From Actinomycetota bacterium (GTDB taxonomy: Bacteria > Actinomycetota > Acidimicrobiia > Acidimicrobiales > Ilumatobacteraceae), in contig JAUSLQ010000135.1 of NCBI GenBank assembly GCA_030645675.1, forward strand, positions 1 through 38,279: DNA of 38,279 nucleotides, in the 5' to 3' direction. Positions 10,764 to 38,279 of the stretch are shown in pieces. The translations under genes and the position numbers were made by a program. Numbering within the stretch: the stretch's first letter is position 1; each line of letters begins with the position of its first letter. Under the pieces are notes generated by a model. It ran no database searches. It was not told where the DNA came from and saw nothing but the letters and a program-made list of their open reading frames with translations.

Positions 10764-10838
10764 GGCCTGATCCCTACCGTCAAGATGACCGACTGTAGCC
10801 CCGGCGCGGCTGCAACACTGGGTGGCATGGAACGGGGT

Positions 10839-15984: not shown

Positions 15985-15990
15985 CGGGCG

Positions 15991-15996
15991 AGGATA
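15991..15996 (-). promoter_or_regulatory. -10 box TATCCT for the epimerase gene
   Basis: On the minus strand TATCCT lies 6 nt before the ATG at 15984 and no Shine-Dalgarno is visible, so a leaderless transcript is likely. A good -35 was not recognised. Confidence 0.42.
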
Positions 15997-16152
15997 GACC
16001 GCGAGGGGTGGTCGCACCGGTGCGTTCCGGCGCCCTTCGCGCCCGTGGCGGCGGTGCCCGCCGGCCGGGTGGCCGGCCGGACGGCGGCTGCGGCTGCGCG
16101 AGTGCGGGAGCGTGCAGCGTCGTGCGGCCTCAGCCGCCAGAAGCCGTACAGG

Positions 16153-16158
16153 TAGGGT
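16153..16158 (+). promoter_or_regulatory. -10 box TAGGGT for the GT4-GNAT gene
   Basis: TAGGGT fits TANNNT and ends 8 nt before the GTG at 16167. It forms a divergent promoter pair with the box at 15991-15996 and supports this GTG over 16161 or 16173. The purine-rich stretch could also act as a ribosome binding site. Confidence 0.4.
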
Positions 16159-16166
16159 GTGTGGTC

Positions 16167-18236: not shown

Positions 18237-18237
18237 C

Positions 18238-19467: not shown

Positions 19468-19479
19468 GGCGCCCGCCCC

Positions 19480-19485
19480 TATCGT
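19480..19485 (+). promoter_or_regulatory. -10 box TATCGT, internal promoter
   Basis: TATCGT ends 7 nt before the GTG at 19493 and lies in the 25-nt gap after the GT4 gene. This suggests a leaderless internal start within the long plus-strand run. No Shine-Dalgarno is visible at that GTG. Confidence 0.42.
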
Positions 19486-19492
19486 GGGCGAC

Positions 19493-23406: not shown

Positions 23407-23410
23407 GGCG

Positions 23411-24298
23411 ATGAGTGCCCGTGTCGCAGTCGTGATCGTCACGTTTCGCCGGGTCGACGTGATGCTGCAGACCCTGGCGTGCGTGCTGCGGCAGACGACG
23501 CCTGTGGTTCGTGTCGTGGTGGTGGACAACGACGGTGGCAGCGATCAGCGAGTGCGGGCGGAAGCGACGGCTCTGTCGGACGGGGTGCACTACCTGGCAC
23601 TGGCGGGGAACCTCGGCCCGGCGGCCGGCTTCGCGGCCGGCCTCGAGTGGTTGCTGGAGGCCGACGACCCCGATTGGGTGTGGTTGCTCGACGACGACAG
23701 CCCGCCGGCGCCCACCTCGTTGGCGTCGTGCCTCGTAGTTGCAGCGGAGGCCCAGGCGGCCGGCCTGCACGTGGGCGCCGTCGGCAATCGCGGCGGTCAC
23801 TTCATCCGGGGCCTAGTTCGGCACGACCTGCGCCGCGTCGAGGGTGGATGGCAGCGGGCCGACTTCGTGCTCTCCGATGGGGCCATCGTCTCCAGCGTGG
23901 CGGTCGCCGCCGCCGGTGTGCCGCGCCGCGACCTGTTCATCATGTTCGAAGACATCGAGTTCACCTCTCGCATCCGGTTGGCCGGCTTTGACGTGCTGGT
24001 GCGGCCGACCGACGGGTCGACCTTCCTGCACATGGGTTCCACGGCCGACTGGCGTGGGTACTACCAGGCTCGGAACCACATCCGGGTGGCCCTCGACCTT
24101 CGGCAGTGGACGTGGCTGTGGGGTTGGGTCGCCCGCGAGACAGGCATCGGGCTGCATCTGCTCCGCGAGCGGCGGTTCGCCGGCTTGTGCTTCCGGTGGC
24201 GGGGCGCGCTCGACGGGTTGCTCGGGCGGATGGGAAAGCGCGTCGACCCAGCCGACCCGAGGCTGTGGAAGCGTCGGCCGCCGAAGGGGCCACGGTGA
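23411..24298 (+). CDS. GT2 family glycosyltransferase (GlfT1/WbbL-like)
   Basis: A 295-residue GT-A enzyme. VAVVIVTFRRVDVMLQTL is the first strand, VVVDNDGG the second, and WVWLLDDDSPP the DxD-like metal site (DDD, as in galactofuranosyl- and rhamnosyltransferases). A FIMFEDIEFTSRIRLAGF motif holds the catalytic-base ED pair and is followed by HMGST. The C-terminal part is basic with amphipathic stretches that may bind membrane. It is the first of four consecutive GT2 genes. A GTGAGG element lies just before the ATG at 23411. Its stop overlaps the next GTG (GTGA). The DDD site makes a Galf or Rha donor worth considering, without proof. Confidence 0.87.
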   Translation: MSARVAVVIVTFRRVDVMLQTLACVLRQTTPVVRVVVVDNDGGSDQRVRAEATALSDGVHYLALAGNLGPAAGFAAGLEWLLEADDPDWVWLLDDDSPPAPTSLASCLVVAAEAQAAGLHVGAVGNRGGHFIRGLVRHDLRRVEGGWQRADFVLSDGAIVSSVAVAAAGVPRRDLFIMFEDIEFTSRIRLAGFDVLVRPTDGSTFLHMGSTADWRGYYQARNHIRVALDLRQWTWLWGWVARETGIGLHLLRERRFAGLCFRWRGALDGLLGRMGKRVDPADPRLWKRRPPKGPR

Positions 24299-25260
24299 GC
24301 GGCGGAGGGGGACGAGTGACGGTGGTGGTGCCGTGCTACAACGCCGCTGCGTTCCTCGCCGACACCCTGCGCAGCTTCGACGAGCAGACGCTCGGTGGCT
24401 TCGAGGTGCTGTTCGTCGACGACGGCTCCACCGACGGAACGCTGGGCATGGTGACCGACTATGCCCGCGAGCGGCCGGGGACGCGTGTGCTGCACCGCCC
24501 CGACAACCGCGGGGTCTGCCGAACCCTCAACGAGGGCGTCGCCGCCGTCTCGACGGAGTTCACCGTCGTGTTCGCCGCAGACGACGTGATGCTGCCCAAC
24601 CTGATGGCCGACGCGTTGGCGGCGATCGACCGCAGCTCCGAGCGCTGCGCCGCCGTCGCGTTCGCCCACTACGCGGGCACCGCCGAGGCCGAGATCCGGA
24701 GTGGGCCCGACGGATCGCCGGAGGTGCGTCGGCCGCCGGCCGGCGCAGACGGCTTGGAACCACCCGGCCTGCTGCCGCTGCAGCTGGTCGCGAACCACCT
24801 CGCCGGTGTCGCCCTGTTCCGCACCGATGTGCTGCGCGGGTTGGGCTACGACGAACGCTCGCACATCGAGGACTGGGACATGTGGTGCCGCATCGTTGCC
24901 GCGCACCCCATCGCCGTCGCCGACGAGCCGGTCTTCATCTACCGCGACTCGCCGATGTCGCTGGACAAGCGCTTGAAGCAGTCCGGGCAGCGATCGGTTG
25001 CGGGCGCTGCGGTGCGGGCGAAGTTCTGTGGCGACGGCGGCCCGATCGACGACGCCATCCTCCGGCGGACGAAGATGGAGCTGCACGTGTTGATCGCAGC
25101 CGGCCTGCGGCGCGAAGCCCGCACCGTGATGCGCCTCCTCGCCGAGGGTGGCCTGCGAGCCCGCTTCCCGGTGGAGCGCGCCGTGATGGCCGTGCCCACA
25201 CCGGTCGTGCGTTGCCTGGCCAGGCTCGCTCAACGCGCCCGCCGGCTGCGAAGCCGGTGA
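24295..25260 (+). CDS. GT2 family glycosyltransferase
   Basis: A 321-residue GT-A enzyme. VTVVVPCYNAAAFLADTL opens the nucleotide-binding fold, followed by VLFVDDGSTDGTLG, NRGVCRTLNEGV and VVFAADDVMLPN as the metal site (ADD). HIEDWDMWCRI is the ED-type catalytic motif. The C-terminal part (KRLKQSGQRS onwards) is basic and amphipathic. Two starts compete: GTG 24295, overlapping the previous stop, and GTG 24316, which has an excellent GGAGGGG 5 nt upstream and begins exactly at the first strand. I give the longer form, but the shorter is at least as likely. Family members add neutral sugars or HexNAc; the donor is unknown. Confidence 0.87.
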   Translation: MSGGGGRVTVVVPCYNAAAFLADTLRSFDEQTLGGFEVLFVDDGSTDGTLGMVTDYARERPGTRVLHRPDNRGVCRTLNEGVAAVSTEFTVVFAADDVMLPNLMADALAAIDRSSERCAAVAFAHYAGTAEAEIRSGPDGSPEVRRPPAGADGLEPPGLLPLQLVANHLAGVALFRTDVLRGLGYDERSHIEDWDMWCRIVAAHPIAVADEPVFIYRDSPMSLDKRLKQSGQRSVAGAAVRAKFCGDGGPIDDAILRRTKMELHVLIAAGLRREARTVMRLLAEGGLRARFPVERAVMAVPTPVVRCLARLAQRARRLRSR

Positions 25261-25316
25261 CAGCCGGCGAGGCGCAGCCCGGCCGCCATCCGGGCAGTGT
25301 GCCAAGATCTCCCCTC

Positions 25317-26192
25317 GTGACCGAAGAAGGCCGCATCGTGGCGAACGATCTGGCGGTGATCATCCCGGTGCACAACCGCCAGAGGCTGCTGGAGCGCGCC
25401 GTGGCCGGCGTGGTCGGGCAGCTCCAGGCCGGGGTGCACATCGTGGTGGTGGACGACGGCTCGCAACCGCCGGTCGATGCGGCGAGGATCGCCGGGCCGC
25501 AGGTGACGCTGGTGCGTGTGGAGCACGGGGGTGTCTCGAACGCCAGGAACGCCGGTGTCGCGGCGGTGCCCGACGCCCGCTGGGTGACGTTCCTCGACAG
25601 CGACGACGAGCCCATGTCGGGGTGGATCGACGAGATCATCGCCTCGCAGCGCTCCGGGGCCTCGATGTTCTCGTGCGCCGCCCGGTACGAGTGGGACGAC
25701 GGCACTGTGGAGACGCCCGTTCCCGTGCCGCTGTGGTCGTCGCCTCCCGGCGCACCGCGGGCACAGTTCCTCGCCGGCACGTTCGCGGTGGCGAGCGCCG
25801 TCTTCCACGCCGCCGGTGGCTACCGCGCGGGGCTGCGCCACGGCGAGAACACCGATCTCGGCTGGCGGATCGCGTCGGTGCTGCAGGAACGGCGGGCTGC
25901 GTGCACCAGCACGGATCAGCCGCTGGTGCGCGTGCACTCGCGGCGGGTGCGCGCCGAGCCGGCCGTGCGCCTGGAGAGCGCGTTGATGGTGCTGGCCGAC
26001 CCGCCCCCGATGCTGCTCGCGGATGCTCGCACGCTCGGCTCGTACCATGCGATCGCAGGCGACTCGGCGTGGCGGCTGGGCATGCGCCGAGCTGCCGTCC
26101 GCCACTTCGCGAACGCACTTCGGGCCGATCCACGCCAACCCCGCCACCTCGCCCGGCTGCTGCGCGCCCTCGTGAAGCGCGTGCCCCGATGA
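25317..26192 (+). CDS. GT2 family glycosyltransferase
   Basis: A 291-residue GT-A enzyme. After a short leader come DLAVIIPVHNRQRLLERAV, VVVDDGSQPPVD, GGVSNARNAGVAAVPDA and the metal site FLDSDDEP. A GENTDLGWRI segment takes the place of the ED catalytic motif, and the C-terminus (AVRHFANALRADPRQPRH) resembles the TPR-like tail of some rhamnosyl- or galactosyltransferases. GTG 25317 is supported by a CAAGAT element ending 8 nt upstream; GTG 25338, with GAAGAAGG upstream, is the alternative. A 56-nt gap before it may hold an internal promoter. The longer frame starting at 23844 is not coding. Donor and acceptor are unknown. Confidence 0.87.
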   Translation: MTEEGRIVANDLAVIIPVHNRQRLLERAVAGVVGQLQAGVHIVVVDDGSQPPVDAARIAGPQVTLVRVEHGGVSNARNAGVAAVPDARWVTFLDSDDEPMSGWIDEIIASQRSGASMFSCAARYEWDDGTVETPVPVPLWSSPPGAPRAQFLAGTFAVASAVFHAAGGYRAGLRHGENTDLGWRIASVLQERRAACTSTDQPLVRVHSRRVRAEPAVRLESALMVLADPPPMLLADARTLGSYHAIAGDSAWRLGMRRAAVRHFANALRADPRQPRHLARLLRALVKRVPR

Positions 26193-26208
26193 CGCCGCGG
26201 TGGCCGGC

Positions 26209-27087
26209 ATGAACATCACGGTGGTGATTCCTGCGTTGAACGCAGCGGGCACGCTGCCGGCACAGCTCGCAGCCCTGGGCCGGCAGATCGGCGCTGCCGC
26301 CTTCCACGTCGTGGTGGTGGACAACGGCTCGTCGGACGGCACTGCGGGCGTGGCCGAGCGCTTCGCCGCGCCGTTCTCGCTGAGCGTGGTGCACGAGCCT
26401 GTCCGAGGCATCAACTCCGCACGAAACGCGGGTGTCGCTGCGGCCGGCGAGGGTTTGGTGCTGCTGTGCGACGCCGATGACGAAGTGCATCCACAGTGGG
26501 TGGCCGCGATGGCCGCAGCGATCGCGCCCTTCACCTGGGTGGGCGGCAGGTTGGACTACGAGGCACTGAACAGCCCGGCGACGCGACAGGTCTGGGGAGC
26601 AGCGACGACCAGCACCTACAAGGAGCGAACACCCTTCGTCGACACGACCTACGGGTGCAACTGCGGGTTCTGGCGGTCGATGTGGTCGCAGCTCGGCGGC
26701 TTCGACACCAACATCAGCGGCACCGGCGGCGACGAGACGGAGTTCTTCATGCGCGCCCATGCCGCGGGGTATCGGCGCACGGACGTGCCCGACGCCGTGG
26801 TGTCGTACCGGCTGCGCCCGGGCCGGCGGGCGATGGTGCGGCAACGGTACCGGCAGGGGCGCAACCAGGTGCTGATGCGGCAGCTTCCCGGTGGGGCCTT
26901 GCTGCCCGGCGCGGAGACCGTGCGCGGGGCGCTGCGGGCGCTGGCCAAGTTGATCCTCGTCTCGCCGATGTACGCCGTGTCCCGCCGCGGGCGCTCCGCA
27001 TGGGCCGCCGCAGTTGCTCGCAACGCCGGCAAGTTGGCCGGCCTGTGGAACGCCCGACGGAGCCGTGCACGACCAACACCGGTGTGA
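26209..27087 (+). CDS. GT2 family glycosyltransferase
   Basis: A 292-residue GT-A enzyme. It starts NITVVIPALNAAGTLPAQL, then VVVVDNGSSDGTAG, RGINSARNAGVAAAGEG and VLLCDADDEVHPQW as metal site (DAD). A GGFDTNISGTGGDETEFFMRAH segment carries the acceptor-base acidic motif, unusually with a Gly-rich run. The C-terminal tail is Arg-rich with a hydrophobic stretch near AKLILVSPMYAV. ATG 26209 is chosen over GTG 26200 because the first strand begins there. It is the last of the four GT2 genes and is followed by a 140-nt gap containing a 12-bp repeat and the putative promoter of the ABC gene. Sugar specificity is not predictable. Confidence 0.87.
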   Translation: MNITVVIPALNAAGTLPAQLAALGRQIGAAAFHVVVVDNGSSDGTAGVAERFAAPFSLSVVHEPVRGINSARNAGVAAAGEGLVLLCDADDEVHPQWVAAMAAAIAPFTWVGGRLDYEALNSPATRQVWGAATTSTYKERTPFVDTTYGCNCGFWRSMWSQLGGFDTNISGTGGDETEFFMRAHAAGYRRTDVPDAVVSYRLRPGRRAMVRQRYRQGRNQVLMRQLPGGALLPGAETVRGALRALAKLILVSPMYAVSRRGRSAWAAAVARNAGKLAGLWNARRSRARPTPV

Positions 27088-27122: not shown

Positions 27123-27227
27123 GCGTCTGAGCTGTTGATCGGGTTAGTCACCGGCGGGATGGATACCCGGTTCCGGATCACCATGGCCCGTACAGTGACT
27201 GCGGGTTCCCCTCCGCCCGTTGTGCCC

Positions 27228-28967
27228 ATGACGCCACTCTCCACTCGCTCCATCCTCTCCCGGTTGCTCCATGGTCATCGCTCGCGCGTCGGCCTCATCG
27301 CGGGCACGTCGATGCTGGGCGGGTTGTCCGAAGCCGTGTTCCTGGTGGTCATCACCCGCGCCGCGTTCGCGATCACCGACGGCGACGACTCCGTTGGCAT
27401 CCTCGCCAGCAGGCGCCTCTCGGTGAACCTGACGGTGGTGCTGGCGCTGGCACTGGTGCTGTTCCGAGTCTCGATGTCGGTCGCTGCCAACTGGCACTCG
27501 GCTGCGCTGAACGCCGACGTCGTCCGCGACCTGCGGCACAAGTTGGCCCACGGTTTCCTGCGTTCCACGTGGGCAGCTCAGCAATCGGCTCGGTCGGGCC
27601 ACCTCCAGGAACTCGTCACGACGTACAGCGGTTCGGGTGCCGCGCTGCTGGGCAGCTTCTCCGCGGGTGTCGTTGCCGCGTTCAGCGTCGCGTCGCTGCT
27701 GGCCTTGGCCACGGCCGTCGACCCGATCGGCTCGCTCGTCGCGGTGGGGGCCCTCGGTGTGCTGGGCTTCACGCTGCGACCCTTGCGTCGCAAGGTGCAG
27801 GTGCACGCGCGCAAGGCCGCCAACGACGGCATGGGCCTGGCGTTGGCCACCAACGAGATCTCCGGCTTGGGAATGGTGGTGCACGTGTTCGATGTGCGCG
27901 ATCAAGTGGAGGCGCGAGTCGATGCCCTCCTCGACGAGGGCATGCGGTCCGGCCGGCGGCTGGGCCTGGTGCGCGGGCTGGTCCCTGCGATCTACACGGG
28001 TCTCGCCTACCTCGCGCTGGTGGGGGCGATCGGGCTTGCCAGCGTGTGGGACACGGCCAGCCTCACCTCGTTGGGCGCGGTGATGCTGGTGATGCTGCGG
28101 TCCCTCAGCTACGGCCAGCAGCTGCAGACGGCGTACACAGGTGTCGCATCGTCCGTGCCGGCGGTTCGCGACGTGTTCGAGGAGATCGAGCGTTTCACGG
28201 ACAACGAATTCGTCGATGACGGCGACCCCGTCGAGGTCGTGTGCCCGCTGCGCCTCGAGCACGTCTCGTTCCACTACACAGACGGTCAGCCCGTGCTCGC
28301 CGGTGTGTCGGCCGAGATCCACGCCAACGAATTGGTGGGTGTGGTGGGGCCGTCGGGTAGCGGTAAGTCCACCCTCGTGCAGCTGCTGCTCGGCTTGCGC
28401 GTACCCACCGAAGGGCGGGTGTTGGCATCCGGGCGCGAGATCCACAGCCTGCGCCACGCCGACTGGGCCCGCAAGGTGACGTTCGTGCCGCAGAGCCCTG
28501 CCCTCGTGCACGGCACCATCGCCGAGAACGTGCGCTTCTACCGCGACGGCTTCAGCGACGCCGACGTGCAGCGCGCCCTGCAACTGGCAGGCTTGCTCGA
28601 CGAGGTGACTGCGTTCCCCGACGGCCTGCGGCACCAGGTGGGCGATCGCGGCGGCAACCTCAGCGGCGGCCAGCAGCAACGCCTGTGCATCGCCCGCGCG
28701 TTGGTGACGCAGCCCGAACTGCTGATCCTCGACGAGCCCACCAGCGCGCTCGACGCCCGGTCCGAACAGTTGGTCCGCGACACCCTCAACACGCTCCGCC
28801 AGCGCATGACCGTCGTCGTCATCGCTCACCGCCTGTCCACGCTGGACGAATGCGACCGCATCATGATCATTCAGGACGGCACCATCTCCGCCTTCGACAC
28901 GCCCGACCGGCTGCGCGAGTCGTCGAACTTCTATGCCGAGGCGATCCGCCTCTCCGGCATCGCCTGA
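27228..28967 (+). CDS. ABC exporter, PglK/MsbA-like lipid-linked glycan flippase candidate
   Basis: A 579-residue half-transporter with the order membrane domain, then ATPase. Six hydrophobic segments span about 15-300, and the coupling-helix region (EISGLGMVVHVFD) resembles PglK and other lipid-exporting ABC proteins. The ATPase has Walker A GPSGSGKST, Q-loop FVPQSP, signature LSGGQQQR, Walker B ILDEPTSALD and H-loop IAHRLS, all intact. With a bacillosamine pathway present, a PglK-like role in flipping the lipid-linked oligosaccharide is attractive, since no Wzx is visible. The frame is open back to 27135; ATG 27228 is preferred as it precedes a normal basic N-terminus, with TACAGT 30 nt upstream as a possible -10. 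MsbA-like lipid or drug export remains possible. Confidence 0.88.
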   Translation: MTPLSTRSILSRLLHGHRSRVGLIAGTSMLGGLSEAVFLVVITRAAFAITDGDDSVGILASRRLSVNLTVVLALALVLFRVSMSVAANWHSAALNADVVRDLRHKLAHGFLRSTWAAQQSARSGHLQELVTTYSGSGAALLGSFSAGVVAAFSVASLLALATAVDPIGSLVAVGALGVLGFTLRPLRRKVQVHARKAANDGMGLALATNEISGLGMVVHVFDVRDQVEARVDALLDEGMRSGRRLGLVRGLVPAIYTGLAYLALVGAIGLASVWDTASLTSLGAVMLVMLRSLSYGQQLQTAYTGVASSVPAVRDVFEEIERFTDNEFVDDGDPVEVVCPLRLEHVSFHYTDGQPVLAGVSAEIHANELVGVVGPSGSGKSTLVQLLLGLRVPTEGRVLASGREIHSLRHADWARKVTFVPQSPALVHGTIAENVRFYRDGFSDADVQRALQLAGLLDEVTAFPDGLRHQVGDRGGNLSGGQQQRLCIARALVTQPELLILDEPTSALDARSEQLVRDTLNTLRQRMTVVVIAHRLSTLDECDRIMIIQDGTISAFDTPDRLRESSNFYAEAIRLSGIA

Positions 28968-29005: not shown

Positions 29006-30559
29006 TCAGTGCACCTTGCGGTCGAGGTCGGCCCAGTACGGCTCGCGCAGCTTGAACTTCTGCAGCTTGCCGGTGGCCGTGCGAGCCAGCGAGTCGCGGA
29101 ACTCCACGACCTTCGGGCACTTGTAGTGCGCGAGCTTGGTGCGGGTGTAGGCGATCACGTCGGCCTCGGTGATCGTCGAGCCCGGCGAGGCGACCACCAG
29201 CGCGAGCACCATCTCGCCCCACTTCTCGTCCGGCACCCCGATCACGGCCACCTCGGCCACCTCGGGGTGGCTGAACACGGCGTCTTCCACCTCGATGCTG
29301 CTGACGTTCTCGCCGCCGGTGATGATCACATCCTTCTTGCGGTCGCTGATCGTCACGTACCAGTCGTCGTCGACGATGCCGCCGTCGCCGGTGTGGAACC
29401 ACTGCGGCCCATCGGGGTCGTCGGTGGCCGCGTGCACTGCCTCGGCAGTCGCTGCTGGCTGTGCCCAGTAGCCGCCCATGATGTGGTTGCCGCGGGCGAG
29501 GATCTCGCCGTCGGGCGAGATGCGCACCTCGATGCCCAGGGCTGGTGCGCCGGCACGGCTGAGCTTCATGGCGCGGTCGGCGGGGGAGAGCTCGTCGTAC
29601 TCCGCTCGCATGCGGTTCATCGTGACCAACGGCGTGGTCTCGGTGAGCCCGTAGATCTGGATGAACTCCCAGCCCAGTTCGGTCTCGACGCGCTCGATCG
29701 TCTTCGTGGGCGGGGGAGCGCCGGCACACACGATGCGCACCTGGCCACGCCCGGGAATGGGGCCGTCCCAGTGCGTCGCGGCGTCGAGGACGGCGTTGGC
29801 GACTGCTGGCGCTGCGCACATCACCGTCACGCCGTGCTGCTGCACCCGGCGCAGGATCTCCGTGCCGTCGATCTTGCGGATGATGATGTGCTGCGCACCC
29901 ATTCCGGTGACGGCGTAGAGCACGCCCCACCCGTTGCAGTGGAACTGAGGCAGGGTGTGCAGGTACACGTCGCGGTCGTTGATGCCCAGGTGCCAGCCGA
30001 ACGTGGTGGCGTTCAGCCAGATGTTGCGGTGGGTCAGCTGCACGCCCTTGGGTCTGGCCGTCGTGCCGCTGGTGTAGTTGATGGTGGCGGTGGCATCTTC
30101 GTCGTACACCCATGGCTTCGGTGGGGCGTGGTCTGCGGGAGCATCGCTGCCGCTGCCGATGACGAACTTGTGCTCGCACTGCACCTCGGCCAGCGCTTCC
30201 TCCAGCTCGGGGTCGACCATCAGTACACGCGCACCGCAGTGCGCCACGATGTACTTCACCTCTTCGGCCACCAGCCGGAAGTTGATCGGTACCAGCACGC
30301 GGCCGGAGCCGCTGACACCGAACAGCGCCGTCAGCAGCCGTGCGGAGTTCTGGCTGACGATGGCTACCCGCTCGCCCACCTCGATGCCCAGCGCGTCCAG
30401 CGCAGCTGCCTGAGCGCGCGCTCTCGCCGCCATCTCCGCGTACGTGCACGAGCCCCACGACTCGGCGGGCTGGTCCGGCTCGTCGACCACGGCGATGCGG
30501 TGCGGGTAGACCTGCTCTGCACGGCGGAGGAAGTCGTTGACGGTGAGTGCGACCTTCAT
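29006..30559 (-). CDS. AMP-forming acyl-CoA synthetase (fatty-acid CoA ligase family)
   Basis: A 517-residue adenylate-forming enzyme. It carries the phosphate loop INYTSGTTARPKG, the IYGLTETTP motif, WFHTGDGGIVDDDWY with the conserved Asp, and the hinge DRKKDVIITGGENVSSIEVED. The GKLQKFKLRE end contains the catalytic Lys. The family activates a fatty or aryl acid with ATP and loads it on CoA. It begins at ATG 30559, with MKVALTVNDFLRRAEQVYPH, and diverges from the PqqD gene at 30679; a six-codon longer GTG form at 30577 is possible. Nothing in the flanks links it to glycan assembly, so it is probably a separate gene from lipid metabolism. The substrate is unknown. Confidence 0.9.
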   Translation of the reverse strand: MKVALTVNDFLRRAEQVYPHRIAVVDEPDQPAESWGSCTYAEMAARARAQAAALDALGIEVGERVAIVSQNSARLLTALFGVSGSGRVLVPINFRLVAEEVKYIVAHCGARVLMVDPELEEALAEVQCEHKFVIGSGSDAPADHAPPKPWVYDEDATATINYTSGTTARPKGVQLTHRNIWLNATTFGWHLGINDRDVYLHTLPQFHCNGWGVLYAVTGMGAQHIIIRKIDGTEILRRVQQHGVTVMCAAPAVANAVLDAATHWDGPIPGRGQVRIVCAGAPPPTKTIERVETELGWEFIQIYGLTETTPLVTMNRMRAEYDELSPADRAMKLSRAGAPALGIEVRISPDGEILARGNHIMGGYWAQPAATAEAVHAATDDPDGPQWFHTGDGGIVDDDWYVTISDRKKDVIITGGENVSSIEVEDAVFSHPEVAEVAVIGVPDEKWGEMVLALVVASPGSTITEADVIAYTRTKLAHYKCPKVVEFRDSLARTATGKLQKFKLREPYWADLDRKVH

Positions 30560-30638
30560 GTGGTCATTGTTGCCCACACGCGCAAGCCGCTGCGCAGTCA
30601 GCGCGACTCATCGCCCTCCCGCGACGGCGATGCCGGTA

Positions 30639-30678: not shown

Positions 30679-31095
30679 ATGACCACGGAGCCCGACATCC
30701 ACCCTCAACCGCCCAGCCTCAGCAGCGTGCTCTCACACGCGACCGCGCAGTGGGCGCTCGCGGGTGCGGAGGCCGTGGTGCACGTGCCGGCGTTCGCCGC
30801 CACCCACGTGCTCGACGCCACGGCCACCGTGCTGTGGCAGTGCCTCGACGGCGAGAGCCCGTTGCAGCTGGTCTTCGCCGACATCGCCGCGGCGTTCGAT
30901 GTGCCGCTGCAACGGGTGGCATCCGACTGCTTGCCGGTGCTGGGCACCTGGCTGCAGGCAGGCCTGGCCGTGCAGGTGCCGGCCGCGCCACCGATGGTGA
31001 CGCCCACGCCTGTGCCCACGCTCACGCCTGTGCCCAAGCCACCGTCCGGGAGCGGCCGTGCGTGGCGACGATTGGTCGACCCGCCCAACACTTGA
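30679..31095 (+). CDS. PqqD-like protein with proline-rich tail
   Basis: A 138-residue protein, the first gene of the operon. Residues about 38-105 follow the PqqD pattern: HVLDATATVLWQCLDG, then a winged-helix-like segment LVFADIAAAFDVPLQRVASD, ending LQAGLAV. A low-complexity tail of VTPTPVPTLTPVPKPP follows, rich in Pro and Thr, which a plain PqqD protein lacks. PqqD-family proteins bind RiPP leader peptides or occur in HPr-rel-A-like sets beside exopolysaccharide genes. Two more PqqD-like genes follow, so this is not a RiPP cluster by itself. The ATG is the first in-frame start after a -10-like box, though the frame is open from 30547. Function is unknown. Confidence 0.72.
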   Translation: MTTEPDIHPQPPSLSSVLSHATAQWALAGAEAVVHVPAFAATHVLDATATVLWQCLDGESPLQLVFADIAAAFDVPLQRVASDCLPVLGTWLQAGLAVQVPAAPPMVTPTPVPTLTPVPKPPSGSGRAWRRLVDPPNT

Positions 31096-31113
31096 GGCGG
31101 TTGCGCGCGGCCC

Positions 31114-31917
31114 GTGTGGCCGCACACGTTCACCATTGCCGTCGACGACACGCTGATCGCAGTGGGCACCGACGACGACGAACTGATGGAAGTGCTCGAG
31201 CCGTGGGTGACCGACGGCGACACCGACAACGACACCGACAACGGCAGCAACAACGGCAGCAACAACGGCAGCCTCACCACCAGCACCGACACCCGCTTCG
31301 GCCCGAGCACCCCAGCGCCGCAGATCGACTTCGGGCTCGAGCTGCACCCGGCGCGCCCCGAAGCGCGCGGTGCGCGACGCGAGTTGCCCACGTTCCGCCA
31401 CGGCACGCGAGTGGTGGGGCGCGCAGCCGACATCGCCGCGCTGCGCGACGGCCTGCTGCGCACGCTCGGCTCGCTCACCTCGCCCACGCTGCCGGGGTGC
31501 ATCCGCATCAGCGGCGTGCCGCTGCTGCGCGACGGCGGCGTCGAGCTGGCCCAACCAGAGGCGGTCGACCGGGTATCGCACCGGTGGCTGCTGCACAGGG
31601 GTCTGACCCCGCTCTACGTACCCAGCGTGCTGATCGACCCGCACGACCTGACCGTGCGCATCGAGGCCCCGCTGGGGGCCGGCGAGGCGCCGGTGATGGC
31701 GCCGCTGCGCCGGTGGTGGGCCGCTCTCCCTGCAGCAGAACTGCCACGCGGGCAGCTGAGCGTCGGCCAGATGGCGGCGCACACCGCCCACCGGCTGGCG
31801 CCGGCGCTGCTGCACGACGAGGCCACGCACCTCGCCGGGCCCAGCAGGGACGCGCTCGCCGGGCTGGTGGCGCTGATCCAGCAACTACCGCCTGCAGCGG
31901 GCGGGCCGGGCTCGTGA
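31114..31917 (+). CDS. HprK-related protein lacking its P-loop (hypothesis)
   Basis: A 267-residue protein with no textbook motif. Reading it beside HprK-related kinases of EPS-linked sets, the N-terminus (HTFTIAVDDTLIAVG, then ELMEVLEPW) matches their amino-terminal domain. Further on, ISGVPLLRDGGVEL and LLHRGLTPLYVPSVLIDP fit the positions of the H-A-G and LSDD-type segments of the kinase core. The Gly-rich Lys-Ser/Thr P-loop is absent, replaced by AQPEAVDRV, and the catalytic acidic motif by VPS, so it would be a pseudokinase. A low-complexity DTDNDTDNGSNNGS insert, encoded by 12-bp repeats, sits near residues 35-55. The GTG start lies 18 nt after the PqqD gene. The assignment rests on eye alignment and could be wrong. 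Confidence 0.6.
   Translation: MWPHTFTIAVDDTLIAVGTDDDELMEVLEPWVTDGDTDNDTDNGSNNGSNNGSLTTSTDTRFGPSTPAPQIDFGLELHPARPEARGARRELPTFRHGTRVVGRAADIAALRDGLLRTLGSLTSPTLPGCIRISGVPLLRDGGVELAQPEAVDRVSHRWLLHRGLTPLYVPSVLIDPHDLTVRIEAPLGAGEAPVMAPLRRWWAALPAAELPRGQLSVGQMAAHTAHRLAPALLHDEATHLAGPSRDALAGLVALIQQLPPAAGGPGS
31219..31272 (+). repeat. 12-bp tandem repeats inside HprK-like gene
   Basis: Two copies of GACACCGACAAC (31219-31242) pass into two copies of GGCAGCAACAAC and a half copy (31243-31272). They encode the DTDN and GSNN low-complexity linker without disturbing the frame. Confidence 0.85.
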
Positions 31918-32216
31918 ACCTCACCGACCGCGGCACCGACCGCGGCACCGACGGCGGCGCCTACCGCCGCTCGCCGCGGGCGATCTGGCGTGCGTCGGCC
32001 AACCTGCTGGTGGCCGCCGTGCCCCCGGCGGCGCCCACCCGAATCGTCGGTTCGGCGGCGATGGTGTGGAACCACTTGGCCGCACCGGTCGGCATCGACG
32101 AACTGGTCGCGGAGCTGGCCGCCGTCAGCGGATCCTCCGCGGCGGCCATCCGGGCCGATGTCGAGTCGTTGCTCGCTGCCCTGGTGCCGCTGGGTCTGGT
32201 GGAGGTGCAAGCGTGA
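31914..32216 (+). CDS. PqqD-like small protein
   Basis: A 100-residue protein that overlaps both neighbours by four bases (GTGA at each end), so it is translated as part of the operon. After a repeat-encoded N-terminus (LTDRGTDRGTDGGA, from a 12-bp repeat) come RASANLLVAAVPPAAPTRIVGSAAMVWNHL and the C-terminal SSAAAIRADVESLLAALVPLGLVE. The order of conserved hydrophobic strand, AxxVW, helix and LLAxLxxLGLV matches PqqD-like domains, here with a weaker N-terminal strand. Nothing shows a target peptide. It sits directly before the nucleotidyltransferase, in the layout of HPr-rel-A-type operons. Confidence 0.7.
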   Translation: MNLTDRGTDRGTDGGAYRRSPRAIWRASANLLVAAVPPAAPTRIVGSAAMVWNHLAAPVGIDELVAELAAVSGSSAAAIRADVESLLAALVPLGLVEVQA

Positions 32217-33310
32217 CGGCCTCTCTCACCGCGGCGGTTGCCGCGCGCCTGGCGACGCTGGGCCTGGGCGACTGGGGGCCAGCACTCGCCTTGGCCCCCA
32301 CCGAGGTCGCCCAGGTGCTGTCCGCCGCTGCCCACGAGGGGTTGGTGTGCCTGCTCGGCGCCGCCCTCGACGGGGGGCTGGTGCACGTCGACACAGCCTC
32401 TGCCTCCCAAGTGGAGGCTGCGTGGGCGGAAGCGATGGCGCGGGTGGTGCAGCTGGACGGCCTGCTGCTGGAGGTGCATGCGTGCCTGACTGCGGCCGGC
32501 ATCGACACCAGGGTGCTGAAGGGCGTGGCCATCGCCACGCTCGACGAACCCGACGCCGCATGGCGCTCGTACAACGACATCGACGTGCTGGTGCCCGCCA
32601 CCCGCTTGCTGGACGCCGCTGATGCGCTGGCCGTCCGGGGCATGCGGCCCGCTGCCGCCCCGGTGGGCCGCCGGTGGGCCGCCCGCCACGCCAAGAGCCT
32701 GACGCTGACCCACCCGTCGGGCGCCCAGGTCGATCTGCACCGCATGCTCGCGGCGGGGGTGTTCGGTGCACGGCTGCGGAACGATTGCCTCTTCGAACGC
32801 GGGCGCGAGTTCTCCGTCGGGGGCAGGGTGATGACCGCGCTGGCCGACCAGCACCGCTTCCTCCATGCGTGCTACCACGCCGCCCTGGGCGGCACTCGTG
32901 GCACTCGCCACCAGCGCGACGTCCTGCTGTTGGCGCAGGCCGTCGGGCCCGACGCGGTCGAGCCGCTGTGGCCCGAGGGTTGGTCGCCCGCCGTGGTGGC
33001 GGCAGCCCTGCGTTGGGCTGGTGGTGGTGACGCGACGCTGCCGCCCGCATGGGACGAGTGGCTGCGCAGCGTGTGCATCGACCCCGCCGACGCAGCCCTG
33101 CTGAACTCGTACGGCGGGTCATACCGCGAGCTGGCGATGGCGGAGTGGCGTGCGACGAAGGGCCTCCTGCCCAGGGTGCGGTTCGCCGCCGCGTTGGTGT
33201 GGCCGTCGTCGGAGAACCTTCGTGCCCGTGGTCGGAGCCGCTGGGGGAACCTGCGGAGCCTCGCCGGTGCCGGCCGCACGCTGGGCACCCGACGGCGAAG
33301 GTCGCCATGA
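32213..33310 (+). CDS. NTP_transf_5-like nucleotidyltransferase
   Basis: A 365-residue protein of the uncharacterised nucleotidyltransferase family found with PqqD and HprK-related genes near exopolysaccharide loci. The core is VLKGVAIATLDEP, then SYNDIDVLV with the paired Asp, and AQVDLHRML with a third Asp, in the order G...DxD...D of polymerase-beta-like nucleotidyltransferases. The N-terminal 100 residues are helical, and the C-terminal half includes LADQHRFLHACYHAALGGTRG, a His-rich helical segment typical of the family. All three acidic residues are present, so it is likely active. Substrate is unknown. The GTG start overlaps the previous stop and the end overlaps the next PqqD gene (ATGA). 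Confidence 0.8.
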   Translation: MTASLTAAVAARLATLGLGDWGPALALAPTEVAQVLSAAAHEGLVCLLGAALDGGLVHVDTASASQVEAAWAEAMARVVQLDGLLLEVHACLTAAGIDTRVLKGVAIATLDEPDAAWRSYNDIDVLVPATRLLDAADALAVRGMRPAAAPVGRRWAARHAKSLTLTHPSGAQVDLHRMLAAGVFGARLRNDCLFERGREFSVGGRVMTALADQHRFLHACYHAALGGTRGTRHQRDVLLLAQAVGPDAVEPLWPEGWSPAVVAAALRWAGGGDATLPPAWDEWLRSVCIDPADAALLNSYGGSYRELAMAEWRATKGLLPRVRFAAALVWPSSENLRARGRSRWGNLRSLAGAGRTLGTRRRRSP

Positions 33311-33588
33311 TCACCTCTCACCCGGCCGGCGGCCGAGCACCCCAGCAGGCCGCCCACGTGTGCGCTGCCTTCCTGGACGACGAAGTGGTGCTGTACGACG
33401 TGCACCGAGCTCGGCCGCTGCTGCTGAACGCAACTGCGGCGGCCGTGTGGGCCGCGATCGACGGAGCGCGCACCGCCGATGCGATCGCCGCCGACCTGGC
33501 CCAACGGTTCGAGGCCGACCCGCGTCACGTGCGTGACGACGTTGCCGCAACCCTGCTCCAGTTCGCCGAGCTCGGCCTTCTCGCGTAG
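33307..33588 (+). CDS. PqqD-like protein
   Basis: A 93-residue protein, the best PqqD match of the three. VLYDVHRARPLLLNATAAAVWAAIDG is the conserved N-terminal strand and helix, then TADAIAADLAQRFEADPRHVRDDV and LLQFAELGLL complete the winged-helix-like fold at the usual family length. The ATG overlaps the nucleotidyltransferase stop. No radical SAM, ATP-grasp or precursor peptide gene follows within the window, so the standard role as a RiPP recognition element has no partner here. Its partner is more likely the nucleotidyltransferase or the degenerate HprK-like protein. It is the last gene of the operon; the next gene has its own promoter-like box. Confidence 0.78.
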   Translation: MITSHPAGGRAPQQAAHVCAAFLDDEVVLYDVHRARPLLLNATAAAVWAAIDGARTADAIAADLAQRFEADPRHVRDDVAATLLQFAELGLLA

Positions 33589-33711: not shown

Positions 33712-36700
33712 GTGGGTAAACGCGTGGGCCCCGCCTCTCGTCCGCGCACGTCGGTCCTCGCGGTGCTGGCCGTGTTCGCGTCCGCCCTCGGGTGGTCCAC
33801 CCTGCATTCCGCTACCCCGGCCGGCGCCGCCGGCGAGACGATCATCAGCACGTTCTACGTGCCGCTCTTCGAAGACAACGCCCGGGCCGCGCTGTTCGCC
33901 GTCAACGGCGGCACCGGCACCCAGCTGTCGTCCACCACCTCGGTCACCGTCGGTGCCGAGGACGCGATCATCTACTACGACAACTGGGAAGACGGCTACG
34001 AGGCCGCCGCGAACGTGCGCACCCAATCGACGACCTCGGTGTTCGGCGACGGCGACACCGCCAATGGCAACGCGGCCACGTACTGCGTGCCTGCTCGTTG
34101 CGCCGGCGACAACCTGCCCGTGGGCGCGGTCCTGCGCCTGAACAACTCCGCCACGGTCGTGCCCGGCGCCATCAACACGCCGCGCAGCGCGGCCACCGTC
34201 GTCTTCGACGGACGCGACAAGATCTCCTCCACCGACGGCCTCGCCGTCACTCACGCCTCATGGCCGACGGCCATCGACGCACTGCACAGCGAGATGGCTG
34301 CCGCCTTCGACACCTCTCGCTGGGGTGTCAGCTTCTCCGCCCCAGTGGGCGTCAACACGCCGGCCCAGGGCGCCGGCACGGCCAGCTTCAGCTACACCGG
34401 CATCGAGGTGATGGCCCGCGAGGCCGGTACGCAGGTGTACATCGACACCAACAACAACGGCGTCTACACCGACGCCGGGGATGTGAACGGCACCACCATC
34501 GGCGAGGGCCAGACGGTCTACGTCAACGGCAACGTGCGCGAGGGCGCCAAGGTGGTCACCACCAAGGCCGCACAGGTCTTCATGATGACCGGTGTGATCG
34601 GCTCGAACTACGAGAACCGCTCGTTCCAGGTGTTCCCCACCGAAGGCCTCGTCAACGACTACGTGGCGCCGGCGTCCTCGGCACGCGCCAGCGGCACCCT
34701 CTACGCGACGGTGCTGTACCTGTTCAACCCACAGACCTCGGCCATCACCGTCAACGTGCAGACACCGTCGGGGACGACGGCCTACAGCATCCCCGCCGGG
34801 CAGACCCTGAACCCGGCCCCGGTGCTGGCCAACGGCGAAGGCGCGCGGGTCACCTCCGCCGCCACGTTCGCGGCCGTGGCCGGCATCGGCACGCGAGAGG
34901 TCGCCGGCAACTCCCTGAACTACGACTGGGGCTACAGCCTGCTGCCGGCGCGCGTCATCACCGACTCGCTGGTGGTCGGGTGGGCACCCGGCTCGCAGAA
35001 CCTGTCGGTGTCGAACTACGACCCGGTGTGGGTGGTCACCCTCGCTCCCACCACCCTGTTCGTCGACTTCGACGCCGACCCCACCACGGGCGCCAACACC
35101 GACCCGAACGGCAGCCGCTACGACACAGCGATCACCGTCGTGACCGCGCTGTCGCAGCTGCGCATCACCGACACCACTGACAACGACATGACCGGTGCCC
35201 ACATCTACACGGTCGATGGCGTGGGCGTGGCCGCGGCCTACGGCGAAGACCCCAACGGCACGCCGGTCGCCTTCCCGGGCATCGACCTCGGCACCACGCT
35301 GTTCCCGTCGTGTGGCGCACTGTGCGTGCGCAAGCTGGCCACCATCTCCGTCGACGTCGACGGCGACGGACTGATCGACCCGGGCGACACGCTGCTCTGG
35401 TCGGTGGAGGCCACCAACACCGACTACTACACGCTGATCAACCCGGTGCTGTTCGACACCCTGCCCAGCGGCCTGGAGTACGTGCCCGGCTCCACCAGCG
35501 TGATCATCGACACCGATCCGCCGGTGGCCGTGGCCGACGACGTCGTTCCGCCCGCTGCCACCCTGTTCCCGTACGACGGGCCCGGCCGGCAGATCTCCGC
35601 CAACATCCCGGTCGGCGGCGTCGTCGCCGCCACCTTCCAGACGGTGGTCGACCCCTCGTTCGCCGGCACCGCCGCCATCTGCAACCGGGCCATCGTCATC
35701 AGCCAGCGCGAGACGCTGCTCACCCCCGCCAACGGCGCCGACACCGGCTGCGTGCCGGTCGACGGCCTGCGCATCACCAAGACCTCCAGCTCCGGCGGCA
35801 ACCCGGTGCTGCCCGGCCAGGCGCTCAGCTACACGATGACAGTCACCAACGCTTCGTCGGCGACGCTCACCGGCCTCGCCGTGACCGACCCGCTGCCCGC
35901 CGGCCTCACGTGGGTCGACACGGCGGTCACCCGGCCGGCGCTCGCGGTCAGCAGCACCACCGTCGCCGACGACTTCCAGAGCGCCGGTGTGTACACCGGC
36001 AGCAGCGGTACCACCGCCTGGTCGGGCGCTTCCTGGGCCGAGACCGACGACGGTGGCGGCGGTGCGACGGGCGGCCTCATCCGGAAGGTCACCGACCTCG
36101 GCGACCTCAGCATCGGCTTCCTGGCCACCACGCCCAGCGGCAACCAGCTGCAGCGCACAGCGGGCGACCTGTCCACTTCTGGCAGCGTCACGCTCAGCGT
36201 CGACACCCGCTGCGCCAGCATGGAGAGCGGCGACTCGGTCGTGCTGGAGATCCGGCCCATCGGCTCGGGCGGCTGGACGAACCTCGACACGTTCAACACC
36301 TGCGACGACGCCGCGTACCAGGCCAACTCGTACACCCTCACCAGCGGTCAGTGGGGCACCAACACGCAGGTTCGGTTCCGGGTCACCGACTCGTTCAGCA
36401 GTGGTGGCGGCGATGCGTTCTACTTCGACAACGTCGTCTTCACCGCCTCCACCACGAGCCGGGTGGTGTCCACCGTGCCGGGGGCAGCACCGCCCGCTCT
36501 GGTGACCCTCACCGACCTGCTGGCCGGCGAGTCGGCCACCATCGTGGTGAACACCACCGTGAACAGCCCCTACACCGCCACCGACGAGGTCACCAACATC
36601 GCGACGGTGCGCACCGGCAACCAGGTCGCCAAGGCCACGGTCGTCGACTGCGTGCGCTGCTTCGACTTCAGCGACGACCCGGGCACGTTCAACGGCAGCG

Positions 36701-38279
36701 GCGGGCTCGACCCCGGCCGTGCCCGCGCCACATCTCCGCGAACGTTCATCGCCGACACGTTCCAGAGCATCGGTTACTCCGGTTCCACCGGTACCGCCAG
36801 CTGGTCCGCCGCCTCCTGGACGGAAGCCGACACCGGCGGCGCCGGGCCGGCCGCGGGCCTGGTGCAGAACGTGATCGACGCGTCCACCCGGGCCATCCGC
36901 ATCGGCAGCGCCAGTGTCACCGCCGGCACCACCACCACGCTTTCGCGCGTCATCGGCGACCTGTCGTCGTACACGTCGGTCTACCTCGCGTTCGAGTACC
37001 GCTGCAGCAACCTGGCTGTCGGCGACGTCGTGGAACTGCAGGTGCGGCCCACCGGCGCCGCGGCGTGGGCCACCCTGCAGACGTTCACCTCGTGCAACCA
37101 CCCCACGATCTACTCCAGCCAAGACCTCACCCTCGCCGGTGCCGACTACGGCACGGCCACCGAGATCCGCCTCAGCGTCACCTCGGCGCTGGAGGCCAAC
37201 GAGTTCTTCTTCTTCGACGACGTGCAGATCCGTGCCATCGCCGACGGCGCCACCATCGGCCCGCGGCTGGGCACAGCCTTCGACCGTGAGGTGCAGGGCA
37301 CCGGCGGTGCGTCGCCGTTCCCGGTCACCGCACCCGCAGCGCCCACCGGCGACGACCTCTCCGGCGTCGACGACGAGGATGGCGTGGTCGTGCCCGCGGT
37401 CGACGTGAACACGCTCGACGTGCCCATCACCGTCACCGACGCCACGGGCGGTGTCAGCTACGTGAACGGCTGGTTCGACTGGAGCAACGACGGCACCTTC
37501 CAGGTGGCCGAGTCGCTGTTCGCGGCCGGTACGTTCGCGTCGGCCACCGGTGGCCTCACCGTGGTCAGCGGCACGGGCCAGGTGCCCGGCCCGGGCACGT
37601 ACACGGTCACCATCAACGTGCCCGACCTCGAGGCCAACGGCTCGGGCTACGCGATCGGCAACACGCTCTACAGCCGCTTCCGCGTCGCCACCGAGCTCAG
37701 CGGCGTCGGCATTGCCACTGCCGCCTCGTCCGATGGCGAGGTGGAGGACTACAGCACCACGCTGAACACGCTGCCGGTCAGCATCTCGTTCGTGGGCTCC
37801 CGGCGCACTGGGGGCAAGGTGACGGTCGATTGGCGCACCGCGCAGGAGGTCGACAACCTGGGGTTCAACCTGTACGCGGCGGCCACCGACGGCACGCTCA
37901 CGAAGCTCAACGACGAGCTCGTGCTCACCCAGGCACCGACCTCCATCGAGGCCCACGACTACTCGCTCACCGTGGCCACCACCGCCGGCACCTTCTGGAT
38001 CGAAGACATCTCGCTCGACGGCGCCACCGACCTGCACGGCCCCTACGCCGTCGGCCAGCGGATCGGCGACCCGGCGCCGCCGCAGCAGATCGACTGGGCA
38101 CCCGCGCGCGAGCAGGTGGCGCGGTCGGCGGCGGCCTCCCGGCGGGCCGAGCTGCGCCGGGCCCGAGCCGAGTCCGCCCGTCGCGTCGCCTCACCCGCTG
38201 CCGCTGCCGTCGGCCCGGTTGCCCGTCTGGAGGTGACGGAGGCCGGCGTGCAGGAGGTGACCTACGAGCAGCTGCTCGC
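33712..38279 (+). CDS. giant multidomain secreted surface protein, partial at right edge
   Basis: An open frame of 1522 complete codons runs to the window end without a stop, so the 3' end is missing. GTG 33712 follows GGGAGG by 5 nt. A signal peptide (about 1-42, ending near PAGAAG) leads to a large beta-rich ectodomain. There are two DUF11-like domains (about 540-610 and 685-750, PGDTLLWSVEATN and PGQALSYTMTVTN), two related jelly-roll-like modules (about 750-915 and 1010-1175, DDFQSAGVYTGSSGTT and ADTFQSIGYSGSTGTA) and a GEVEDY motif (1342-1347). A fibronectin-like segment then contains VTVDWRTAQEVDNLGFNLY. Ca-binding-like loops occur at 245-257 and 548-559. After an Arg/Ala-rich linker the last residues, ARLEVTEAGVQEVTYEQLL, resemble the N-terminus of gingipain-type C25 proteins, so a peptidase may follow; that part is inference. 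It is probably an adhesin or surface enzyme. Confidence 0.85.
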   Translation, partial: MGKRVGPASRPRTSVLAVLAVFASALGWSTLHSATPAGAAGETIISTFYVPLFEDNARAALFAVNGGTGTQLSSTTSVTVGAEDAIIYYDNWEDGYEAAANVRTQSTTSVFGDGDTANGNAATYCVPARCAGDNLPVGAVLRLNNSATVVPGAINTPRSAATVVFDGRDKISSTDGLAVTHASWPTAIDALHSEMAAAFDTSRWGVSFSAPVGVNTPAQGAGTASFSYTGIEVMAREAGTQVYIDTNNNGVYTDAGDVNGTTIGEGQTVYVNGNVREGAKVVTTKAAQVFMMTGVIGSNYENRSFQVFPTEGLVNDYVAPASSARASGTLYATVLYLFNPQTSAITVNVQTPSGTTAYSIPAGQTLNPAPVLANGEGARVTSAATFAAVAGIGTREVAGNSLNYDWGYSLLPARVITDSLVVGWAPGSQNLSVSNYDPVWVVTLAPTTLFVDFDADPTTGANTDPNGSRYDTAITVVTALSQLRITDTTDNDMTGAHIYTVDGVGVAAAYGEDPNGTPVAFPGIDLGTTLFPSCGALCVRKLATISVDVDGDGLIDPGDTLLWSVEATNTDYYTLINPVLFDTLPSGLEYVPGSTSVIIDTDPPVAVADDVVPPAATLFPYDGPGRQISANIPVGGVVAATFQTVVDPSFAGTAAICNRAIVISQRETLLTPANGADTGCVPVDGLRITKTSSSGGNPVLPGQALSYTMTVTNASSATLTGLAVTDPLPAGLTWVDTAVTRPALAVSSTTVADDFQSAGVYTGSSGTTAWSGASWAETDDGGGGATGGLIRKVTDLGDLSIGFLATTPSGNQLQRTAGDLSTSGSVTLSVDTRCASMESGDSVVLEIRPIGSGGWTNLDTFNTCDDAAYQANSYTLTSGQWGTNTQVRFRVTDSFSSGGGDAFYFDNVVFTASTTSRVVSTVPGAAPPALVTLTDLLAGESATIVVNTTVNSPYTATDEVTNIATVRTGNQVAKATVVDCVRCFDFSDDPGTFNGSGGLDPGRARATSPRTFIADTFQSIGYSGSTGTASWSAASWTEADTGGAGPAAGLVQNVIDASTRAIRIGSASVTAGTTTTLSRVIGDLSSYTSVYLAFEYRCSNLAVGDVVELQVRPTGAAAWATLQTFTSCNHPTIYSSQDLTLAGADYGTATEIRLSVTSALEANEFFFFDDVQIRAIADGATIGPRLGTAFDREVQGTGGASPFPVTAPAAPTGDDLSGVDDEDGVVVPAVDVNTLDVPITVTDATGGVSYVNGWFDWSNDGTFQVAESLFAAGTFASATGGLTVVSGTGQVPGPGTYTVTINVPDLEANGSGYAIGNTLYSRFRVATELSGVGIATAASSDGEVEDYSTTLNTLPVSISFVGSRRTGGKVTVDWRTAQEVDNLGFNLYAAATDGTLTKLNDELVLTQAPTSIEAHDYSLTVATTAGTFWIEDISLDGATDLHGPYAVGQRIGDPAPPQQIDWAPAREQVARSAAASRRAELRRARAESARRVASPAAAAVGPVARLEVTEAGVQEVTYEQLL

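Follow-up and report, generated by a model that had tools for sequence, protein, structure and literature searches.

What would three PqqD-like proteins do beside a nucleotidyltransferase and an HprK-like protein without a kinase site, in a locus where no RiPP partner is visible? The question is raised by the window studied here, the whole stretch of 38,279 nucleotides analyzed from an Ilumatobacteraceae bacterium (Actinomycetota; assembly GCA_030645675.1, contig JAUSLQ010000135.1), for which the original prediction proposed a complex remodeled by tripling of PqqD and loss of the kinase site. Five genes, D1-k-D2-N-D3, form a tight run on the forward strand (30679-33588). Profile searches, named by that prediction as a possible refuter, sustained three distinct PqqD-like (PqqD/RRE-like) proteins: D1 (30679..31095, 138 amino acids), D2 (31914..32216, 100 amino acids), and D3 (33307..33588, 93 amino acids) all exceeded the PF05402 cut-off of 23.4 bits, with 30.2, 28.4, and 56.3 bits, respectively. 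The nucleotidyltransferase N (32213..33310, 365 amino acids) was recovered as NTP_transf_5 (PF14907, 80.3 bits against a cut-off of 31.2), and K103/G104, R118, D122-x-D124, and D174 are invariant in an alignment of three sequences. Between D1 and D2 lies k (31114..31917, 267 amino acids), a degenerate HprK-like protein. The tight, mostly overlapping layout was also borne out, with 4-base overlaps at k/D2, D2/N, and N/D3 and 18 bases between D1 and k. Throughout the assembly, D1, D2, and D3 are the only PF05402 matches and N is the only PF14907 match. The tripling is uncommon but not unique, because 8 of the 120 sequences with any match, the window included, have at least three PqqD matches. 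A reading as anti-phage defense was rejected, as PADLOC matched 0/5 of the proteins.

The glycan neighborhood that had been predicted corresponds to an exopolysaccharide locus on the forward strand (2543..27087), with a sugar transferase, a UDP-sugar dehydrogenase, an aminotransferase, and glycosyltransferases; a Pfam family was found for 12 of the 19 open reading frames scanned. After it comes an MsbA-like ABC exporter (27171..28967, forward strand; PF00005, 115.6 bits), whose best NCBIfam match, MsbA, reached 242.8 bits, below the cut-off of 602, and whose counterpart in one relative (L179) is 52% identical. An AMP-binding acyl-CoA ligase-like gene (29006..30577, reverse strand; PF00501, 255.6 bits), divergent from D1, is 89% identical in L179 and 85% in another relative, L180. 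Downstream of D3, a gene with a probable GTG start encodes a giant secreted protein, and its front part (33712..38279, forward strand) carries the Pfam domains DUF11 and GEVED. The window is the entire contig, and its 3' end falls within this gene.

The claim that the operon has no RiPP partner is not supported: the contig ends in the next gene, and in three relatives a small Tat-signal protein (T) with an RRE-binding motif stands right after the giant gene. The neighborhood survey found that the gene order recurs outside this genome, with D1-k-D2-N in 4/4 named relatives and D3 in three of them; in one (L075/L182), N and D3 share one open reading frame. In L179, eight genes (D1, k, D2, N, D3, the giant, T, and an HprK-like kinase) follow head to tail on one contig; the same order occurs without D3 in L181/L155 and spread over two contigs, L075 and L159, in G386. 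Thus, the succession of giant, T, and kinase was found in all three relatives with the giant beside the set (L179, L181, and G386). The window's giant protein is 72% identical to that of L179 over 1529 amino acids, up to the contig end; in a relative where the giant is complete, its C-terminus is formed by a C25 peptidase domain.

The kinase that closes these operons has an intact P-loop and, among NCBIfam families, matches HprK_rel_A best. Its H108, K129, and D146-D147 are invariant in three sequences, in keeping with the His-Lys-Asp-Asp pattern of lasso kinases (PMC9266682). Searching PDB sequences with this kinase and with N returned no informative relatives. Since it comes after the giant in three relatives, the kinase seems not to have been lost, contrary to the original prediction. 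Neither this kinase nor T was found in the source genome's own assembly, which is 80% complete (best kinase match, E 0.006); one of the searches behind this result scored at most 20 candidates per genome.

The protein k does lack a P-loop, as predicted, and GK[ST] is missing in 5/5 orthologues; its predicted likeness to HprK proved weak. No Pfam family exceeded its cut-off, NCBIfam gave no match at all, an hhalign comparison of five k sequences with three of the downstream kinase gave no match, and a profile built from P-loop kinases alone scored the window's k at E 2.7. The AlphaFold model of k (pLDDT 64.6) had no Foldseek match at E<=0.001; HprK/P chains made up 12 of its best 50 Foldseek rows, which weakly suggests an HprK-like fold. 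At 13 of 20 degenerate-k loci, the k homologue and a PqqD domain share a single open reading frame. An intact-type kinase is also present at 19 of these 20 loci, window counted, of which 16 have it in the fetched region, L047 by profile only, and L075 and L079 further on (L159 and L155); the sole locus without one is the window, on its cut contig. This count leaves out variant-loop kinases tagged as k by the P-loop pattern and k matches of 55 bits or less, and the conclusions on k do not rest on the first k profile, which drifted into true kinases. We regard k as probably a separate, degenerate pseudokinase partner of D1.

What the PqqD-like proteins may bind is suggested by their relatives. 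The best solved-structure (PDB) match of the D2 profile is LppB (9x8z, E 0.027) and that of the D1 profile is TbiB1, the matches of D1 and D2 to TbiB1/LppB reaching only E 0.03-0.04; both proteins are RREs with structures solved together with a leader (PMC13381572). D1 also has a conserved C-terminal tail, W-R-x-L-x-x-P-P. In three relatives, T has 160-175 amino acids, compared with 35-200 for LPP precursors, and carries WVAPQV; its signal contains [Y/W]xxPx[L/V/I/F/A], the leader motif bound by PqqD/RRE domains in lasso and LPP peptides (PMC13381572). Outside the source's class, 7 of 16 T-profile matches of at least 30 bits lie within 10 kb of N, as do 0 of 63 weak matches of 20-25 bits (Fisher p 3.9e-6), with N taken from the matches listed. 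The seven strong matches compare with 0.15 expected by chance, assuming a 3 Mb genome and 20 kb for each N; the 16 strong matches are spread over 10 genomes and are thus not wholly independent of one another. The 34 weakest listed out-of-class places of N were left out of this count, and none shares a contig with a T match. PqqD and/or kinase matches occur in the fetched region for 12 of the 16, and the full motif is present in 15 of them. The T seeds were picked from loci with PqqD, N, or kinase genes by a pattern requiring W..P; therefore, the motif counts are partly built in. The residue after P and the out-of-class genomes are more independent, yet the profile favors W and P there too. A structure of T (pLDDT 68) had no Foldseek match at E<=0.001; MATH domains topped the list at E 0.02 and were not used.

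Given the genes, their order in relatives, the motif, and the association, all directly observed, we consider it likely that the five genes make up the first half of an LPP-like operon of phospho-RiPP type, with T as the substrate, its Tat signal as the leader, and the giant C25 peptidase and the intact kinase further on; the window's operon would then continue as in its relatives. Such a set would probably attach phosphate, and perhaps sugar, to a protein that is exported. The PqqD proteins would bind the Tat-signal leader and present T, the kinase would phosphorylate Ser/Thr of T, and N would attach a nucleotidyl or sugar group to that phosphate, while k might serve as an inactive scaffold acting with D1. 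Once modified, T would be exported through Tat, possibly to be processed by the secreted C25 enzyme.

Other explanations weigh the same loci differently. T could be an ordinary Tat protein, truly associated with the set but merely co-regulated, the PqqD proteins binding another, unseen peptide. Its mature parts vary between loci, a generic Tat protein of 24 bits (L202) also carries the motif, and motif-bearing T occurs where D, N, and K are absent from the fetched region at 4 of the 16 strong out-of-class matches (L191, L192, L195, and L196, the last a 6 kb contig) and absent nearby at 11 of 16 non-seed matches of at least 25 bits inside the class. However, the signal holds the exact RRE-binding motif, weak, generic Tat signals are not enriched near N among the matches listed, and none of the gaps in the L179 operon could accommodate a further gene, which makes this explanation unlikely.

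It is also rather improbable that the three PqqD proteins, N, and a dead HprK-like protein form a remodeled, kinase-free complex that acts in a glycan pathway, on a lipid-linked sugar or an exopolysaccharide enzyme, and modifies no peptide. The missing P-loop of all five k orthologues would suit such a complex, as would the glycan locus upstream in the window, the glycosyltransferase genes in L179 and L180, and the five genes of L180, which have no giant, T, or intact kinase alongside. On the contrary, intact kinases follow the giant in L179, L181, and G386 and accompany k at nearly all its loci, the partner bound in solved complexes of PqqD relatives is a peptide leader, and no glycan genes were seen beside the set in L075 or L079 when their open reading frame listings were judged by eye. 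The giant protein might itself be the partner, a PorU-like, sortase-like surface enzyme whose assembly or glycan attachment depends on the five-gene set: it adjoins the set in 4/5 loci (window, L179, L181, and L182), and its C-terminal part matches PF01364 at 215 bits and the T9SS sortase family NF033707 at E 1.5e-35, below the cut-off. We consider this very unlikely, given that L180 keeps the set without the giant, that the giant occurs in only 3 of 121 class sequences (window, L075, and L079), whereas PqqD/N/kinase sets are common, and that the one giant seen among L183-L202 is in L199, beside a T and without D, N, or K.

The favored LPP-like reading extends a kind of system already known. 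LPPs are linear polyphosphorylated peptide RiPPs of Bacillota, encoded by lppAKBSDN; sets of RRE, HprK kinase, NTP transferase, and MsbA-like exporter have been reported inside capsule loci, and LPP and paeninodin-type phosphopeptides are described as restricted to Bacillota (PMC13381572). The window shares with LPP a discrete RRE, an NTP transferase, a polysaccharide locus, the lack of a macrolactam cyclase, and perhaps the nearby MsbA-like exporter, and its relatives add the HprK-like kinase and the leader motif; N, assigned by PF14907, is likened to LppN as an NTP transferase. The exporter is possibly an LppD counterpart or an exopolysaccharide flippase, perhaps belonging to the exopolysaccharide locus. 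Unlike LPP, the systems here come from Actinomycetota, their leader is a Tat signal in which W predominates over Y, and they have three RREs, a pseudokinase, and a giant C25 peptidase in addition. No SpI-like leader peptidase (LppS) is encoded in the eight-gene L179 operon, whose gaps are too short, and an S24/S26-like motif was found by a crude pattern in 2 of 120 class regions. Systems for lasso peptides that are phosphorylated or phosphoglycosylated (paeninodin and pseudomycoidin) likewise have an RRE (B1), an HprK-like kinase, and a nucleotidyltransferase, and the paeninodin leader has W-x-x-P, as T does; the candidate precursor here differs in being an exported protein of 160-175 amino acids. 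A lasso peptide was rejected, since the macrolactam synthetase (C; asparagine synthetase-like) and the B2 protease are absent from the operon and could not fit in the L179 gaps. The gene between N and the kinase in four other class loci had no Pfam family over the cut-off. The HPr-rel-A system of NCBIfam offers related kinases (TIGR04352) and PqqD proteins (TIGR04353), and D3 passes TIGR04353 at 36.7 bits (cut-off, 35); in contrast, D1 reaches only 14.5 bits, D2 and k have no match to their respective families, and five kinases of the relatives score 58-95 bits against a TIGR04352 cut-off of 200.

In our best reading, therefore, the LPP-like kind is known, and the actinobacterial variant with a leader doubling as a Tat signal would be new; no title or abstract listed in word searches of the open-licence literature describes the combination. 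More tentatively, and with some doubt, these loci may represent a large actinobacterial RiPP-like family in which the RRE motif lies in the hydrophobic part of a Tat-signal leader. Binding of this leader by PqqD proteins and by the Tat translocon would be mutually exclusive; thus, the PqqD proteins would act as export gatekeepers, retaining T until the kinase and the nucleotidyltransferase have modified it. The three protein kinds of LPP are found here again in Actinomycetota, with a different candidate precursor: exported proteins that carry the RRE motif in their Tat signal. If this is true, many unannotated PqqD/HprK/NTP_transf_5 loci would become testable and gain candidate substrates, and RiPP leader recognition would be joined to the control of Tat export.

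The window holds five tightly packed genes, as originally predicted and as the coordinates bear out: three PqqD-like proteins, D1 (30679-31095), D2 (31914-32216) and D3 (33307-33588), a P-loop-less protein, k (31114-31917), which matched no family above a cut-off, and an NTP_transf_5 nucleotidyltransferase, N (32213-33310), which exceeded the PF14907 cut-off. The PqqD-like identity suggested for D1, D2 and D3 held in profile searches, all three scoring above the PF05402 cut-off. They were the only PF05402 matches, and N the only PF14907 match, in the source assembly (4.09 Mb, 80% complete), of which the window is one entire contig. N keeps K-G, R, D-x-D and one more D, presumably the active site, as in nucleotidyltransferases generally. 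No PADLOC family matched the set.

Four relatives carrying the set turned up when named genomes were scanned, all titled as Actinomycetota or Actinomycetes metagenome bins (L179, JAUXQB010000257.1; L180, JAUSLV010000030.1; L181, JANYCT010000014.1; L182, CAUJEE010000052.1). The order D1-k-D2-N recurs in 4/4, showing that the arrangement is not confined to this genome, and D3 is found in three; in L182, D3 lies in one open frame with N. The distribution is patchy, since two other genomes of the window's genus have no PF14907 match. The glycan locus expected near the set is real upstream in the window, where 12 of the 19 ORFs scanned match a family. L179 shares with the window glycosyltransferases, an ABC exporter and an AMP-ligase, and L180 shares a glycosyltransferase and the AMP-ligase; at L075 (the L182 region) and L079, visual inspection of the ORF listings revealed no glycan locus. 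In a common arrangement in the class, a gene of about 520-540 codons lies between N and a kinase (L106:7453-9081, with equivalents in L128, L123 and L133), with no Pfam family above cut-off in the four tested.

The P-loop is absent from k in 5/5 orthologues. HprK/P made up 12 of the best 50 rows in a fold search (top HprK/P row, E 1.3), and this match, with drifted profile iterations, weakly suggests that k is an HprK relative. At 20 loci with k, the window counted, a P-loop kinase occurs within the fetched region in 16; at L047 the profile picks out a kinase-type protein that lacks the P-loop pattern used, and at L075 and L079 an intact HprK-like kinase is located further on, leaving the window as the sole locus without a kinase. 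The k and PqqD domains occupy one open frame at 13/20 loci, and D1-k is therefore best seen, from gene structure, as a single unit. In the intact kinase, the GKST loop and the H, K, D and D residues do not vary across 3 sequences; the kinase's top NCBIfam match is HprK_rel_A, far under cut-off. A second copy, 50% identical and with one in-frame TAG reported, occurs in G161, the genome of L181 (L206, G161:C25:134762-135616).

After D3, the window encodes a giant secreted protein truncated by the contig end, 72% identical over 1529 aa to the L179 giant; the complete giant in G161 has a terminal C25 peptidase domain (PF01364, 215 bits). Directly after the L179 giant (11389-18156, measured from stop to last codon) comes T, a small Tat-signal protein and candidate precursor (18156-18680), and then the intact kinase (18680-19570). 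L181/L155 has the same succession; in G386, the genome of L182, L075 ends within the giant, and another contig, L159, opens with the giant's end, then T and the kinase. Because a DEAD-box helicase-like gene (named from the sequence) follows D3 in L180 and a DEAD-box helicase lies downstream of the kinase in L179, giant, T and kinase seem to behave as one block, all or none. The 80% complete source assembly yielded no continuation of the giant, a chance-level kinase match only (E 0.006) and one generic Tat match (22.6 bits). The giant is rare (3/121 class sequences: window, L075 and L079). In another genome, G035, at L199:8045-14595, a giant C25-type protein has a Tat-leader protein immediately after it and no PqqD, NTase or kinase match within the fetched 17 kb; a PqqD/N/kinase set of G035 lies on another contig (L086).

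The T profile was built from a recurring Tat-type signal near NTP_transf_5 loci. At E<1e-3 it matched 30 of the 121 class sequences (the window, which has no T, plus 120 fetched regions); 23 of these had supplied the seeds. To avoid circularity, the T profile and PF14907 were run over 346 phylum genomes and the test was restricted to those from other classes than the window's. Among the matches listed, 7/16 T matches of at least 30 bits had an NTP_transf_5 gene no more than 10 kb away (chance expectation, 0.15), as against 1/14 at 25-30 bits and 0/63 at 20-25 bits (Fisher p 3.9e-6, strongest versus weakest group); the 16 represent 10 genomes, 8 with a PF14907 match among those listed, and are not fully independent. 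PqqD and/or kinase matches surround 12 of the 16 in the fetched neighbourhoods, and none was found in those of L191, L192, L195 and L196. Within the class, 30 genomes gave 16 non-seed T matches of at least 25 bits, five (L150, L159, L165, L169 and L171) whose fetched region contains PqqD, N and/or kinase matches and 11 with none, three of these 13-34 kb from N on the same contig; T genes therefore occur apart from the set too. Short Cys-rich Tat-leader proteins, knottin-like by eye, adjoin PqqD and HprK/NTase genes at L187:5838-6155 and L197:8071-8382, and PqqD and a weak kinase-like match only at L193:2987-3418.

Leaders of lasso peptides and of linear polyphosphorylated peptides (LPP; RiPPs of Bacillota, lppAKBSDN) bind the PqqD-like RRE domain through [Y/W]xxPx[L/V/I/F/A], as crystal structures and mutants show (PMC13381572). 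[Y/W]xxP occurs in 27/27 T-profile rows and the full motif in 25/27, in 15/16 strong out-of-class matches and in none of nine weak class matches (14-23 bits). Two more matches of 28-29 bits were inspected; one has the full motif and resembles an ordinary Tat enzyme (L202), and the other lacks it. The W/Y lies 10-19 residues past the nearest preceding RR (15 in 14/27 rows). The best PDB matches of D2 and D1 are solved RRE chains, LppB (E 0.027) and TbiB1 (E 0.04), respectively; D3 matched PqqD chains first, then TbiB1, PbaB1, TfuB1 and LppB. LppB D70 (paper numbering), which touches the leader Tyr (PMC13381572), aligns by eye with an invariant Asp of D2, as does the corresponding TbiB1 Asp with one in D1 and in D3.

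The proposed scheme takes LppK, PadeK and PsmK/PsmN as its models (PMC13381572, PMC8498205, PMC9266682): the PqqD proteins would present T, the intact kinase would phosphorylate it and N would modify the phosphate; PMC9266682 leaves undecided whether PsmN is itself the hexose transferase. Judging by its signal, T would be exported via Tat. More tentatively, Tat signal and RRE leader may be one element, in which case the PqqD proteins would gate export. Two ORFs, from two genomes of one genus (L073:4418-5833 and L111:7511-8893), combine a Tat leader, an HprK-like kinase domain and an LPFTG-like sorting motif accompanied by a hydrophobic stretch and a basic tail; they carry the RRE motif without its W/Y and are possible precursor-kinase fusions.

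An S24/S26-like signal peptidase motif, recalling LppS, lies beside kinase, PqqD and NTP_transf_5 genes at L060:6553-7167 and L090:4782-5531 (2/120 regions, by a crude pattern). We file the set as working like LPP and not as an LPP member, because the operon has no LppS-like peptidase, a defining LPP feature, two defining features were tested in relatives only, and the host, unlike that of LPP, lies outside Bacillota.
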